From Nitrospira sp. (GTDB taxonomy: Bacteria; Nitrospirota; Nitrospiria; Nitrospirales; Nitrospiraceae), in assembly GCA_016788465.1 (NCBI GenBank), contig JAEURV010000141.1:1-41183 (forward strand): a stretch of 41,183 nt of DNA, given 5' to 3'. Made by a program: the position numbers and the translations under genes. Shown piece after piece: positions 6,238 to 20,938 of the stretch. The notes under the pieces were generated by a model. The model saw nothing but the letters and a program-made list of their open reading frames with translations. It was not told the origin of the DNA and ran no database searches. Numbering within the stretch: the stretch's first letter is position 1; each line of letters opens with the position of its first letter.

Positions 6238-6393
6238 ATGACCTGTCGAAAGTGTAAAGGGTTGATGATTCAAGAACGGCAACCAGCGGTGTCTTCCAGT
6301 ACAGTCATTCTTCGTTGTCTGAATTGTGGTTTGATCATTGACCCATTGATCGAGCTAAATCGCAGCAACCACATGCGAGCAAAGGCCGCGTAG
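6238..6393 (+). CDS. Zinc-ribbon microprotein, 51 residues
   Basis: ATG 6238 follows GGGAGGAGGAACTCC, a very strong ribosome binding site. The peptide has two CxxC knuckles, CRKC (residues 3-6) and CLNC (28-31), so it should bind one zinc ion as a treble-clef or ribbon fold. The segment between is polar and the tail (SNHMRAKAA) is basic. It could be a small nucleic-acid- or protein-binding factor; the partner is unknown. A strong start site, intact knuckles and an upstream dyad support a real gene despite its size. Confidence 0.78.
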   Translation: MTCRKCKGLMIQERQPAVSSSTVILRCLNCGLIIDPLIELNRSNHMRAKAA

Positions 6394-6457: not shown

Positions 6458-7231
6458 TCAGATCGAAAACTCTGCCCACAAAAACGTATGGTCGGACGGT
6501 TCCTTCGCTCGTCGCGGCTCGACATCCACATCCGCCTTCACGCATTTTTCAGCCAGCGGTGGAGTTGCCATCATATGATCAATGCGCCATCCTTTGTTGG
6601 CTGCCAGTGAGCTGGGCGCGCGATAGTCCCAAAATGTGTACTGCTGACGAGTCGGGTACAGTTTGACAAAGACATCCTCGAATCCCCAGGCAACAGTCTG
6701 TTCGTATGCTTTCCGTGCCGCTTCGTGGTAGCAGACATGATTCAAATGCTTCTCCGGGCTGTGAACATCCATTGGGCGTGGGGCCACGTTCATGTCTCCG
6801 CACCAGATAGCGGGAGCCTGCGGTGAAAGATGTTTGGTAAAGTAGTTCCGCAGCCGCTCATACCAACCTAGTTTGTAGGCATATTTGGGTGAGTCGATTT
6901 CGAATCCCTGCGGCACATACGTATTGATAATCGGAATTCCACCAATGATGACTCTCAGCAAGCGAGAGTCTTCCGGTTCTCCACCGTCATCGAATCCGTA
7001 AAAGACTGCCTCCGGTTTGTGACGACTGAGAATCGCCACGCCGTTATAGGACTTCATGCCGCGAAAGGTAATGTCGTATCCACTGGGTGTTAATGCCTGT
7101 AATGGGAACTCGCTATCTTGAACCTTGGTCTCTTGAAGACAAAGGACATCCGGCTTATGTTGTTCGAGCCAAGCAAGCACGATCGGAAGCCGTTTGCGCA
7201 AGGAATTGGCGTTGAACGTGGCGATTTTCAT
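6458..7231 (-). CDS. xthA: Exodeoxyribonuclease III / AP endonuclease
   Basis: A 257-residue Mg-dependent nuclease of base-excision repair that cuts at abasic sites and degrades 3' ends. Family motifs are all present: N7/N9 in ATFNANSLRKR, the metal-binding E34 in LQETKV, YNGVAIL near 62-68, the INTYVPQG Tyr region, the catalytic WCGDMNVAP near 144-152, WRIDHMM near 216-222, and the C-terminal SDHTFLWAEF with the catalytic Asp-His pair. Start ATG 7231 gives MKIATFNANS, the usual beginning. It runs in the same direction as oxyR, 84 bases downstream of it. Confidence 0.95.
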   Translation of the reverse strand: MKIATFNANSLRKRLPIVLAWLEQHKPDVLCLQETKVQDSEFPLQALTPSGYDITFRGMKSYNGVAILSRHKPEAVFYGFDDGGEPEDSRLLRVIIGGIPIINTYVPQGFEIDSPKYAYKLGWYERLRNYFTKHLSPQAPAIWCGDMNVAPRPMDVHSPEKHLNHVCYHEAARKAYEQTVAWGFEDVFVKLYPTRQQYTFWDYRAPSSLAANKGWRIDHMMATPPLAEKCVKADVDVEPRRAKEPSDHTFLWAEFSI

Positions 7232-18254: not shown

Positions 18255-19079
18255 CTATAGAGGTGATTGGTTCAGCACGGCGAGCATCGCTTCGTGGATC
18301 CATCCGTTGCTGGCCACGAGTTCCTGCCCATAGATGGAGAGGGTCTTCCCGCTGAAATCGGTCAAGCGCCCGCCGGCTTCACGGGCGATGACTGAGCCGG
18401 CTGCCATGTCCCAAGGGCTGAGCCGCACCTCCCAGAATCCGTCAAAACGCCCGGCTGCCACATAGCACAGGTCTAACGCAGCCGATCCCGTTCGTCTCAA
18501 CCCTTGAGCTTTCAGAGCAAACTTCACGAAGTGATCGAGGTTGTTCCGCTTGGTTTCTCGGATGTCGTAGGCGAAACCGGTGACTAAGAGGCTGCCGTCG
18601 AGAGTCTGTGTCGCGGATACATGGAGAGGCCGACCGTTTACGTGTGCTCCGCGACCTTCAATAGCTGTGAACAATTCATTCCGTGAAGGGTCGAAAACGA
18701 CACCGATGATACATCGTCCATCGTATTCCAAACCAATGGAGACGCAATAAGTGGGATAGCCATGCGCAAAATTCGTGGTTCCATCGAGTGGGTCAATAAT
18801 CCATCGATAGGGGGAAATCCCGGCATCGTCGGGCCCCCGCTCTTCGGCCAGGATGTGATGATCAGGAAAGCGAGTCTTCAGGTGATCGATCACGCACTGT
18901 TCTGCGGCACGGTCGGCATCGGTGACCAGATTGATGGGGTTCTTGTATTCGATCTGAAATCCGGTTGCTGCATAGCGAAGTAAGAGGGATCCGGCTGCTT
19001 GACTAGCTTCAACTGCAGCTTGAAGCAGGATATCTTGTGAGGGTGATTCATGAGGACTTGGCACGCCCGATTGTAACAT
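18255..19079 (-). CDS. suhB: Inositol-1-monophosphatase family protein
   Basis: A Mg-dependent phosphatase of the FIG superfamily; in bacteria these hydrolyse inositol phosphates or related sugar phosphates and may assist rRNA transcription (SuhB). Metal-site motifs are present: LAEERG with the metal Glu, WIIDPLDGTTNFAHG, and the C-terminal WDMAAGSVIAREAGG. The frame is open to 19139, but the extension is hydrophobic and has no family match, so ATG 19079 is chosen (274 residues). Substrate cannot be read from sequence. The upstream region is shared with the divergent HARE-HTH gene. Confidence 0.9.
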   Translation of the reverse strand: MLQSGVPSPHESPSQDILLQAAVEASQAAGSLLLRYAATGFQIEYKNPINLVTDADRAAEQCVIDHLKTRFPDHHILAEERGPDDAGISPYRWIIDPLDGTTNFAHGYPTYCVSIGLEYDGRCIIGVVFDPSRNELFTAIEGRGAHVNGRPLHVSATQTLDGSLLVTGFAYDIRETKRNNLDHFVKFALKAQGLRRTGSAALDLCYVAAGRFDGFWEVRLSPWDMAAGSVIAREAGGRLTDFSGKTLSIYGQELVASNGWIHEAMLAVLNQSPL

Positions 19080-19188
19080 ACCCGAACTTGCAGCTAACAA
19101 GAAACCTGCTACTCTTGACAAGACAAGCCTTATGATCACCGATCATTCAAGGATTACTTGCTTGCAAGAGACAGAAATGAATAGACAA

Positions 19189-19208
19189 TGTATTATTCGA
19201 ATAATACA
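19189..19208. promoter_or_regulatory. Perfect 20-bp palindrome (operator candidate)
   Basis: TGTATTATTC followed directly by its reverse complement GAATAATACA. It ends two bases before the -35 box of the promoter at 19211. Position and perfection suggest the binding site of a dimeric regulator that acts on this promoter and perhaps on the divergent phosphatase gene. Confidence 0.7.
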
Positions 19209-19210
19209 AG

Positions 19211-19239
19211 TTGACAAGGTTTATATGCAATGATATAAA
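19211..19239 (+). promoter_or_regulatory. Near-consensus sigma-70 promoter for the HARE-HTH gene
   Basis: TTGACA (19211-19216), a 17-base spacer, and TATAAA (19234-19239) preceded by TGA, an extended -10. Transcription should start near 19246, giving a leader of about 20 bases before GTG 19266. It is the best promoter I see in the window. Confidence 0.82.
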
Positions 19240-19265
19240 GCAAGCATGCTTTATGTGGGGGTCTT

Positions 19266-19781
19266 GTGGAGGAGTTGAGAGATATTCTCGTTGGTCTGGA
19301 GCAACGGATCAGCGCCTATAAGAGTCGGTATCAGGAGCTCGAGAAGAAGCGTCGCCGGCTCGATGACGAGATTGCCACCATCAAAAAGTACCTTGAACTT
19401 GCTGAAACCCTCTATCGTGTCGAGGCCGACAAGGCCAAGCTTGCCAGTCTTTCCAACCAGATTATTACCACGGATGATTCCAAGGGAATTCGGCCGGTTC
19501 CTGTTATGGATGTGACCGATCAGTCTAGAGAAATTCTACTTGGACGGAGTAAGTATGTGGGGAAGAGTGTTCCGCAGGCTGCCTATGAAATACTCCGGGA
19601 ATCCAATCGAGCCATGCATGCAAAGGAGCTCGTTCAACGGTTGATCGAAGGGGGGTTGCAGATTAAAGGGAAAACCCCGCTGACGTCGATCGCTACCTCG
19701 CTCAAGCGTGACAAGCGCTTTAGAAAGGTCGGACCCAATACGTTTGAAGCGTTGGACGACATGTTGATTCAAGCCGTCTAA
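19266..19781 (+). CDS. HARE-HTH (winged-helix) protein with N-terminal coiled coil
   Basis: The 171-residue protein has a charged coiled coil at residues 1-60 (LEQRISAYKSRYQELEKKRRRLDDEI), a linker, and a C-terminal winged helix at about 98-165: KSVPQAAYEILRESNRAMHAKELVQRLIEGGLQIKGKTPLTSIATSL, with DKRFRKVGPNTFEA. This pattern is the HARE-HTH domain found in bacterial RNA-polymerase delta factor, restriction systems and eukaryotic chromatin proteins. It probably binds DNA or polymerase. GTG 19266 follows GGGGG. The promoter and palindrome upstream suggest tight, perhaps self, control. Confidence 0.8.
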   Translation: MEELRDILVGLEQRISAYKSRYQELEKKRRRLDDEIATIKKYLELAETLYRVEADKAKLASLSNQIITTDDSKGIRPVPVMDVTDQSREILLGRSKYVGKSVPQAAYEILRESNRAMHAKELVQRLIEGGLQIKGKTPLTSIATSLKRDKRFRKVGPNTFEALDDMLIQAV

Positions 19782-19832
19782 GTGGTTGGTACTCATGGGC
19801 CAAACTTGACAATGCGAAGGGGGGTGAGACTC

Positions 19833-19874
19833 TTGGCAACGAAGAAGGCAGCAGCAAAGAAGAAGAAGAAGTAA
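19833..19874 (+). CDS. Lysine-rich micro-ORF, 13 residues
   Basis: TTG 19833 lies 8 bases after AAGGGGGG. The encoded peptide is MATKKAAAKKKKK, then TAA. An in-frame ATG at 19812 would give a 20-residue form. The composition recalls the alanine/lysine tails of bacterial histone-like proteins. It sits 51 bases after the HARE-HTH gene and before a strong hairpin, so it could be the last unit of that transcript. A remnant of a longer basic protein is the alternative. Confidence 0.4.
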   Translation: MATKKAAAKKKKK

Positions 19875-19890
19875 CCCCAATGTGATGTGA

Positions 19891-19924
19891 TACGCCGAGG
19901 GTGAGGTTCCTCACCCTCGGCGTA
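19891..19924. terminator. Strong hairpin, probable bidirectional transcript end
   Basis: TACGCCGAGGGTGAGG and its reverse complement form a 16-bp stem around two central T's, between the HARE-HTH unit and the facing lpxC gene. There is no T-run on either side, so it is either a non-canonical terminator or an RNA-stabilising stem shared by both 3' ends. Confidence 0.6.
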
Positions 19925-20008
19925 CCATCCTACGATGTCTCTGATTATCTCGTGCGAGTAGTCCTACCAAAACAACGACAATTCGCTGAACAGAAGAAGT
20001 TCTGTAAG

Positions 20009-20938
20009 CTAAGACGCCTGCAGTGCCACAGCTGGTTGGAGTGGAGTACTATACGGGGTGGCACGTACTTCTGCCTCTGAAGAATCAGTGTTCAGCAACG
20101 TCCACTTGTCTGGCTGAGACAGGATTTGTTGGACCAGCCTGGTATGGAGGGCATGCCCTGACCGATCTGCAACAATGTGCCCAATGAATGGCATTCCTAA
20201 GAGCGAAAAATCACCGATCAGGTCCAGGATTTTGTGACGGACGAATTCATCGTCAAATCGGAGGCCGGATTGATTGACGATACCGTCACCCGAGAGGACA
20301 ACCGTATTATCGAGTGTCCCACCTTTTCCAAGTCCACGAGCCCACAAGGCTTGAACCTCTTGAAGGAAGCCAAATGTCCGGGCCTCCGCAATTTCATTCT
20401 CAAAGGTACCGACTGAGCAATCATAGTCATACGTCTGCGTTTTGATCAGAGGGTGATCGTAGTGAATTGAATATGTAATACGGGGCGTCGTGGATGGCTC
20501 AATTCGTACCCGCTTTGAGCCGTCGGTGATTTCAATCGGAGCCATGATCTTGAGAAATGACTGCTTCCGTTCTTGGGACACTACGCCGGCAGACTGAATC
20601 AGCCTGACGAATGGCGCAGCGCTTCCATCCATGACCGGGACCTCGGCGGCCGTCACCTCAATGAAGGCGTTGTCGATATCCATGCCGGACAGGGCCGCCA
20701 GTAAATGCTCAATAGTTTGGACCTGAAATCCATTTCCTTTGATGGCGGTGCACAATTCCGTTGGGATCTTATGCTCGATGGAAACAGGTAGATAGGCATC
20801 AACGTCCGAAGTGCGGTTGACGAAAACGATGCCGGTGTCTGGCGGCGCAGGCCGCAGCGTGATTGACGCAGATTGGCCTGAGTGGAGCCCTACTCCGGAA
20901 CAAGTGACCGCTGATGCTAAGGTTTGTTGATTCCGCAC
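20009..20938 (-). CDS. lpxC: UDP-3-O-acyl-N-acetylglucosamine deacetylase
   Basis: The committed zinc-dependent step of lipid A synthesis, which shows an LPS-bearing outer membrane. The 309-residue protein has the two repeated domains of LpxC. Zinc ligands are H78 in TIEHLLAAL and the His/Asp pair in FVRHKILDLIGD; VTAAEVPVMDGSAAPF and a late HALHTRLVQQI with the catalytic His are also seen. Start is GTG 20938 behind GGGAGGA, giving MRNQQTLASAVTCSGVGLHSG, the usual opening. It is monocistronic and faces the HARE-HTH gene. Confidence 0.96.
   Translation of the reverse strand: MRNQQTLASAVTCSGVGLHSGQSASITLRPAPPDTGIVFVNRTSDVDAYLPVSIEHKIPTELCTAIKGNGFQVQTIEHLLAALSGMDIDNAFIEVTAAEVPVMDGSAAPFVRLIQSAGVVSQERKQSFLKIMAPIEITDGSKRVRIEPSTTPRITYSIHYDHPLIKTQTYDYDCSVGTFENEIAEARTFGFLQEVQALWARGLGKGGTLDNTVVLSGDGIVNQSGLRFDDEFVRHKILDLIGDFSLLGMPFIGHIVADRSGHALHTRLVQQILSQPDKWTLLNTDSSEAEVRATPYSTPLQPAVALQAS

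Follow-up and report, generated by a model that had tools for sequence, protein, structure and literature searches.

A putative two-gene unit of a HARE-HTH protein and a very small lysine- and alanine-rich micro-ORF in Nitrospirales, with a lineage-specific palindrome at its promoter

In a 41,183-nucleotide stretch of Nitrospira sp. DNA (hereafter the window), a perfect palindrome next to a promoter is ordinary in itself, and the more interesting content is a micro-gene that follows a HARE-HTH gene and often outlives this partner. We propose an order-wide transcript that would carry the HARE-HTH gene and then the micro-ORF and would be ended by a hairpin. A strong TTGAC-N17-TATAAA promoter would drive the HARE-HTH protein, followed by a tiny, basic peptide rich in lysine and alanine. 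If the AT-rich segment holding the palindrome has a function, it most likely works in the manner of an UP element. The most likely targets of the HARE-HTH protein are GCAAGC/GCTTGC half-sites over the -10/+1 region (GCAAGCATGCTT), from which it would repress its own promoter. Taken as a whole (UP-like palindrome segment, two-gene unit, autorepression through the 12-mer, and action on the nucleoid), this is the account towards which we lean, with appreciable weight left to other readings.

The features concerned are as follows, with positions counted in the window.

18255 to 19079, - strand: divergent inositol-monophosphatase (IMPase) gene (PF00459, 246 bits), a conserved divergent neighbour
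19149 to 19168, + strand: AAGGATTACTTGCTTGCAAG block, containing GCTTGC and conserved only in the close Nitrospira group
19189 to 19208, no strand: perfect palindrome TGTATTATTCGAATAATACA, in an AT-rich, UP-element-like position upstream of the -35 box
19211 to 19216, + strand: -35 box TTGACA, its TTGAC invariant in 90/90 loci
19234 to 19239, + strand: -10 box TATAAA, its spacer exactly 17 long in every one of the 90 aligned loci
19240 to 19251, + strand: GCAAGCATGCTT (the 12-mer), candidate operator spanning the discriminator and the putative start site, which would lie inside it at about 19246
19266 to 19781, + strand: HARE-HTH gene, GTG start, 171 aa, with a predicted coiled coil (2-69), a linker and a predicted winged helix (about 83-170)
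19816 to 19828, + strand: strong Shine-Dalgarno region GAAGGGGGGTGAG
19833 to 19874, + strand: micro-ORF, TTG start, MATKKAAAKKKKK, 13 aa, rich in lysine and alanine
19893 to 19922, + strand: conserved hairpin, probably a terminator, with convergent genes on either side
20009 to 20938, - strand: convergent lpxC (PF03331, 353 bits)

A preliminary description of this DNA had a near-consensus promoter driving a HARE-HTH winged-helix gene, and this was borne out: the product of 19266-19781 matches PF05066 (40.7 bits against a curated cut-off of 25.9, residues 103-160), and TTGAC is found in every one of the orthologous loci compared. The layout given there, TTGACA-N17-TGATATAAA, needs correction, since the 17 bp of the spacer lie between TTGACA and TATAAA and include TGA; the promoter is TTGACA-N17-TATAAA with a TGN extended -10. 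It was missed by a promoter scanner that wants T at the last -10 position, where TATAAA has A. The comparison covers 90 orthologous loci, 30 returned by a family profile search (our own included) and 60 full-length loci picked from the rest. Aligned on the -10 box, these sequences show the promoter and the 12-mer to be conserved: the columns of GCAAGCATGCTT hold 1.4-2.0 bits, and at least 11 of its 12 bases are kept in 87/90 orthologues (mean 11.66 in intact loci). At two loci, L083 and L069, the 12-mer is eroded with the HARE-HTH gene intact. The 12-mer belongs to a dyad, ATAAAGCA-N4-TGCTTTAT (19235-19254), and beyond it GCAAGC or GCTTGC occurs 37 times in the 90 Nitrospiraceae promoters against 9.3 expected. 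The AAGGATTACTTGCTTGCAAG block may supply a second site with GCTTGC or belong to the promoter of the divergent IMPase gene.

The 12-mer was also considered as a regulon motif, and this was rejected. At up to two mismatches the 18-mer TATAAAGCAAGCATGCTT has a match in 39 of 60 genomes, one in each and never more, and off-locus matches to the 14-mer AAGCAAGCATGCTT at one mismatch are not above a reversed control. From these searches, which returned no further sites, we take the 12-mer to be a local site.

Loci in which the HARE-HTH gene is no longer intact bear on what this site may do. Among the family genomes, 25 are without a HARE-HTH match; the micro-ORF pattern is present in seven and absent in 18, and because 12 of these 18 also lack lpxC, the locus is probably missing from those 12 assemblies. 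In genomes G014, G005 and G015 the HARE-HTH match is either partial or broken, and a micro-ORF adjoins it. Altogether lpxC is present and the HARE-HTH gene not intact in 16 genomes, and the micro-ORF is kept in 11 of them, namely the seven pattern-positive genomes, the three just named and G004. In G004 the TTG of the micro-ORF has become TTA, with an ATG two codons further on, the sole start-codon exception seen. Both genes are absent from the remaining five (G123, G001, G002, G141 and G173), so the peptide is not universal. In G123 lpxC directly adjoins the IMPase gene, a clean deletion; beside lpxC in the other four there is no trace of the unit, and other neighbours stand there. As judged by comparing these genomes, the micro-ORF often outlives its HARE-HTH partner.

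Eight of the 11 keepers (L102-L109) entered the promoter comparison. They were found through the micro-ORF pattern, so the presence of the micro-ORF in them is no evidence by itself. In these loci the HARE-HTH frame is plainly disrupted; remnants of it can still be recognised in L103, L104, L106 and L107, and upstream lies promoter-like sequence with a spacer of 17 and 9-12 of 12 matches to TTGACA/TATAAA; the 9/12 matches in L102-L104 could be scan chance, and the argument there is the position just before the start of the remnant. The 12-mer, by contrast with the intact loci, retains 3, 5, 5, 6, 6, 8, 8 and 10 of its 12 bases. At L110, where the gene is frame-shifted and otherwise fresh, it is still 12/12. 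Seven of the decayed loci have an IMPase, and on a 68-row IMPase tree they require four losses, at least three of which are forced by well-supported branches. This erosion after HARE-HTH decay suggests autoregulation, at a site other than the palindrome. The co-loss is suggestive and unproven, because a sign test on independent losses has three supported pairs (p 0.25) and cannot reach 0.05. The promoter would persist after HARE-HTH loss because it still drives the micro-ORF. The self-regulation raised as one option in the preliminary description is still our best guess, with its site moved from the palindrome to the 12-mer over -10/+1, the better candidate operator.

Other readings of the 12-mer have to be weighed here. 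It might be an intrinsic part of the promoter, a discriminator and initial transcribed region serving, for example, growth-rate control. We regard this as possible and rather unlikely: GCAAGCATGCTT does span the region from just after the -10 box to about +6, in a strong promoter with an AT-rich block upstream, but it has eroded where HARE-HTH was lost even though the promoter still had a micro-ORF to drive. The extra GCAAGC copies in the promoters, and inverted repeats with N9 spacing in a sister family, also fit this reading poorly. Alternatively, the site could serve a different transcription factor that has nothing to do with the HARE-HTH product. This appears improbable to us; while co-loss with the gene does not alone name the binder, a factor with other targets would unusually have to be without further sites in 60 genomes.

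The palindrome was correctly described as a perfect 20-bp palindrome beside the promoter: TGTATTATTCGAATAATACA has no spacer, is exact at 19189-19208 and ends two bases 5' of TTGACA. Locally this is unusual, for dinucleotide shuffles of the 185-bp intergenic region give a perfect palindrome of at least 20 bp in 1/4000. Once the whole window is scanned it is unremarkable: 30 whole-window shuffles contained three such palindromes in all, and base composition alone leads one to expect about 3.9 per 3.7-Mb genome. It had been suggested that a dimeric regulator binds here, and the palindrome could be the true operator of such a regulator (HARE-HTH or another), refined in this species only. Besides its local rarity, this idea can draw on the symmetry seen in relatives. 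Of 52 offsets tried, that of the palindrome axis gives the greatest mean symmetry (4.28/10 over 89 relatives and, with ATTATT..AATAAT partly kept, 6.06/10 over 35 close ones; the next best offsets reach 3.69 and 4.31), and since it tops all the axes tested, an old imperfect dyad may lie there.

The same relatives nevertheless make an operator at the palindrome improbable. At its place the symmetry is perfect in 1/90 orthologous promoters, that of our own genome, with a next best of 8/10 pairs, and it is absent outside the close group although the HARE-HTH protein is conserved there. In close relatives the symmetry is not maintained pairwise, and one-sided changes go uncompensated: among 29 distinct close sequences 184/290 cells are paired, against a mean of 188 for re-dealt columns, and 280 cells show 95 one-sided changes, 11 two-sided changes still paired and 11 two-sided changes unpaired. 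A search of its own 3.7-Mb genome, a check proposed in the preliminary description, gave no second copy with up to three mismatches. The palindrome was thus rejected as the operator of a dimeric repressor; its lack of conservation upstream of orthologues is an outcome that the preliminary description itself had named as refuting. Control of the divergent phosphatase gene was the other option; the IMPase gene is a conserved neighbour, but nothing links the palindrome to it. (The conserved IMPase start is probably the ATG at 19079, where the alignment of relatives starts; the open frame continues to 19139.)

In 57 of the 90 orthologues, perfect palindromes within the upstream 200 bp reach a maximum length of 10 bp. 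Locus L013 has an unrelated perfect 22-bp palindrome, AGCCTTGTACATGTACAAGGCT, which precedes the HARE-HTH start by about 157-136 bp, and L020 and L023 have CTTGTACCGGTACAAG near that place. What is conserved at the palindrome's place is AT-richness: the AT fraction is 0.76 against 0.59 further upstream and is greater in 85/90 loci, a comparison whose test value overstates independence, as the loci are related. This conserved property is why an UP-element-like role suits the region, which is best read from its composition as a lineage-specific UP-element-like stretch, AT-rich directly upstream of the -35 box. In the account that we favour, the palindrome would be an accidental, lineage-specific perfection of this AT-rich segment.

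An overlooked micro-ORF with a strong Shine-Dalgarno region lies downstream of the HARE-HTH stop in 90/90 intact loci, and its start is TTG in all 90 (the script allowed ATG, GTG and TTG). At L044 the script gave a longer in-frame reading that encloses the same micro-ORF. The commonest form in relatives has 12 aa, MATKKAAKKKKK; lengths in Nitrospiraceae range from 11 to 21 aa, with the frame kept as the length varies between 36 and 66 nt. The identical 12-aa peptide occurs in 55 of 100 loci (90 intact, eight decayed, L110 and L111, none dropped) and is encoded there by 29 DNA variants. When 31 distinct 39-nt micro-ORFs are compared in pairs, the differences number 0, 90 and 1569 at codon positions 1, 2 and 3, in a comparison that searched TTGGC starts by construction. 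The micro-ORF is thus shown by sequence comparison to be conserved and under coding selection, with both a synonymous pattern and conserved initiation signals, and it is probably translated into a peptide.

As a DNA pattern the micro-ORF is found in 149/175 family genomes, with zero matches for a reversed control. Eight genomes have a HARE-HTH match and no pattern match; six of their micro-ORFs could be read directly (L069, L070, L072, L074, L075 and L087), and in the other two, G005 and G015, the micro-ORF was found beside lpxC. In a sample of the phylum the pattern is present in 72/79 family genomes and 0/216 others, and it misses the longer form of the sister family. Additional copies were also seen. 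At locus L111 (genome G132, contig C17), near position 2013 when the locus is reversed, a second micro-ORF, LATKKAAKKKTAKKKK, stands alone, with its own hairpin and no adjoining HARE-HTH gene; the HARE-HTH promoter of the same genome is that of L083, with the eroded 12-mer. Contig C82 of genome G009 has tandem micro-ORF copies (6357-6392 and 6529-6564) behind one HARE-HTH gene.

The hairpin at 19893-19922 has 1206/1230 cells paired over 95 distinct rows, and 10 of its 13 pairs show at least two Watson-Crick types. It is without a following T-run in our own genome and many of the genus, unlike in several other genera. Rfam on 18900-20100 gave three matches only, all far below gathering scores. 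It is very improbable that the micro-ORF, instead of being a peptide gene, arises only as a side effect of a conserved RNA or terminator element. In favour of that reading, a covarying hairpin follows it, the peptide has only 12-13 aa and no Rfam family reaches its gathering score; the differences by codon position, the kept frame, the conserved Shine-Dalgarno region and start, and the longer sister-family protein all argue against it.

The HARE-HTH protein was found by profile search in 150/175 family genomes; relatives found among public records belong to Nitrospira (N. moscoviensis and Candidatus N. defluvii). The profile matched 0/14 genomes of another class of the phylum, in a search run without a positive control. 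Locus L114 (genome G077, contig C13) has two full units of HARE-HTH gene and micro-ORF about 7.7 kb apart, one open frame of which extends upstream into a response-regulator-like stretch, perhaps through assembly artefact or recombination. The AlphaFold2 model of the protein (mean pLDDT 81.6, pTM 0.45) has a predicted winged-helix fold at about 83-170, for which the best structural match is the HARE domain of RNA-polymerase delta (2m4k; Z 8.3, rmsd 2.8, 72 aligned). Linker-histone globular domains are among the fold matches (1ust, Z 7.6; 5nl0, Z 7.5), and the first Foldseek match is the Rok DNA-binding domain (E 3.8e-3). Matches at Z of about 8 or below are common for winged helices, and the model singles out no one relative, because many unrelated winged helices have nearly equal Z. 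A PDB sequence search with the HARE-HTH alignment returned only designed coiled-coil fusion peptides (E about 0.01).

In the sister family of the order, 36/40 genomes have the HARE-HTH gene, and a 24-64-aa ORF rich in lysine, alanine and proline follows it in 20/22 loci by script; in the remaining two, L201 and L206, the ORF begins alike by eye. GCAAGC or GCTTGC occurs 21 times in the 22 promoters against 1.8 expected, including inverted repeats such as AAGCAAGC-N9-GCTTGCTT. The 64-aa ORF weakly matches the NCBIfam model hist_H1_lk_Burk (NF038053; E 5.7e-4, 20.2 bits, short of the cut-off of 80) and has a weak match to Pfam HC2; the 12-13 aa form is too short for a profile scan. By its composition, the sister-family counterpart of the micro-ORF is a histone-H1-tail-like protein of 24-64 aa.

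We propose a nucleoid-associated pair because of the fold likeness to Rok and H1 and the H1-tail-like ORF of the sister family; the HARE-HTH protein would act in a Rok-type manner and the peptide like a histone H1 tail. A more specific version, which we offer as speculation and think unlikely to hold in full, sees a two-gene analogue of linker histone in Nitrospirales: a DNA binder with coiled coil and winged helix (HARE-HTH) would work with a co-transcribed Lys/Ala(/Pro) tail, a separate product supplied in trans. In Nitrospiraceae that tail would have shrunk to about 12 residues and would be the more firmly retained when the winged helix is lost, and the winged-helix protein would set both levels through its own promoter.

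Nitrospira are major nitrite oxidisers, and to our knowledge their chromatin proteins have been little studied. If our account is right, it gives the order Nitrospirales a candidate nucleoid system, and the micro-ORF, nearly always started by TTG and likely missed by length-limited annotation, is among the smallest evolutionarily conserved bacterial genes. The several natural losses of the regulator would also provide a test of autoregulation. More generally, reading a perfect palindrome at a promoter from one genome can mislead. In the literature searched we found neither MATKKAAKK nor a lysine-rich small protein of Nitrospira. Among the matches listed for nucleoid-associated or histone-like proteins of Nitrospira, none was about Nitrospira by title. 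As far as the listed records show, matches for HARE-HTH with histone H1 in bacteria concern eukaryotic chromatin, and the sole match for Nitrospira with HARE-HTH concerns polymorphic toxins.

Several known systems share parts of this arrangement. The delta subunit of RNA polymerase (RpoE) has PF05066 in common with the HARE-HTH protein; however, delta carries its HARE domain at the N-terminus, followed by an acidic tail, whereas in the Nitrospira protein a long predicted coiled coil precedes a C-terminal HARE domain, and the delta equivalog model TIGR04567 scores 13.4 bits against a cut-off of 42. Rok of Bacillus subtilis has an oligomerisation region at its N-terminus and a winged helix at its C-terminus and binds the minor groove of AT-rich DNA, according to passages of PMC6212790. 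PMC11841835 was searched for Rok autoregulation, and no passage on it was found. The HARE-HTH protein may share this layout, with its predicted coiled coil at 2-69 and predicted C-terminal winged helix, but Rok prefers AT-rich DNA and the candidate site here is GCAAGC; we found no sequence-family relation between the two. Nor are we aware that Rok has an H1-like partner.

Bacterial histone H1-like proteins (AlgP, Hc1/Hc2, BpH1) have repeats rich in lysine, alanine and proline. Their likeness to the unit lies in the Lys/Ala/Pro richness of the sister-family ORF, at a score far below the curated cut-off, and in contrast to them the Nitrospiraceae peptide has only 11-21 aa and its gene accompanies that of a winged-helix protein. 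Eukaryotic linker histone H1 has both elements, a winged helix plus a Lys/Ala-rich tail; the fold match seen here is generic for winged helices, the likeness is one of fold and not of sequence, and the two elements are encoded in Nitrospirales by two separate genes.
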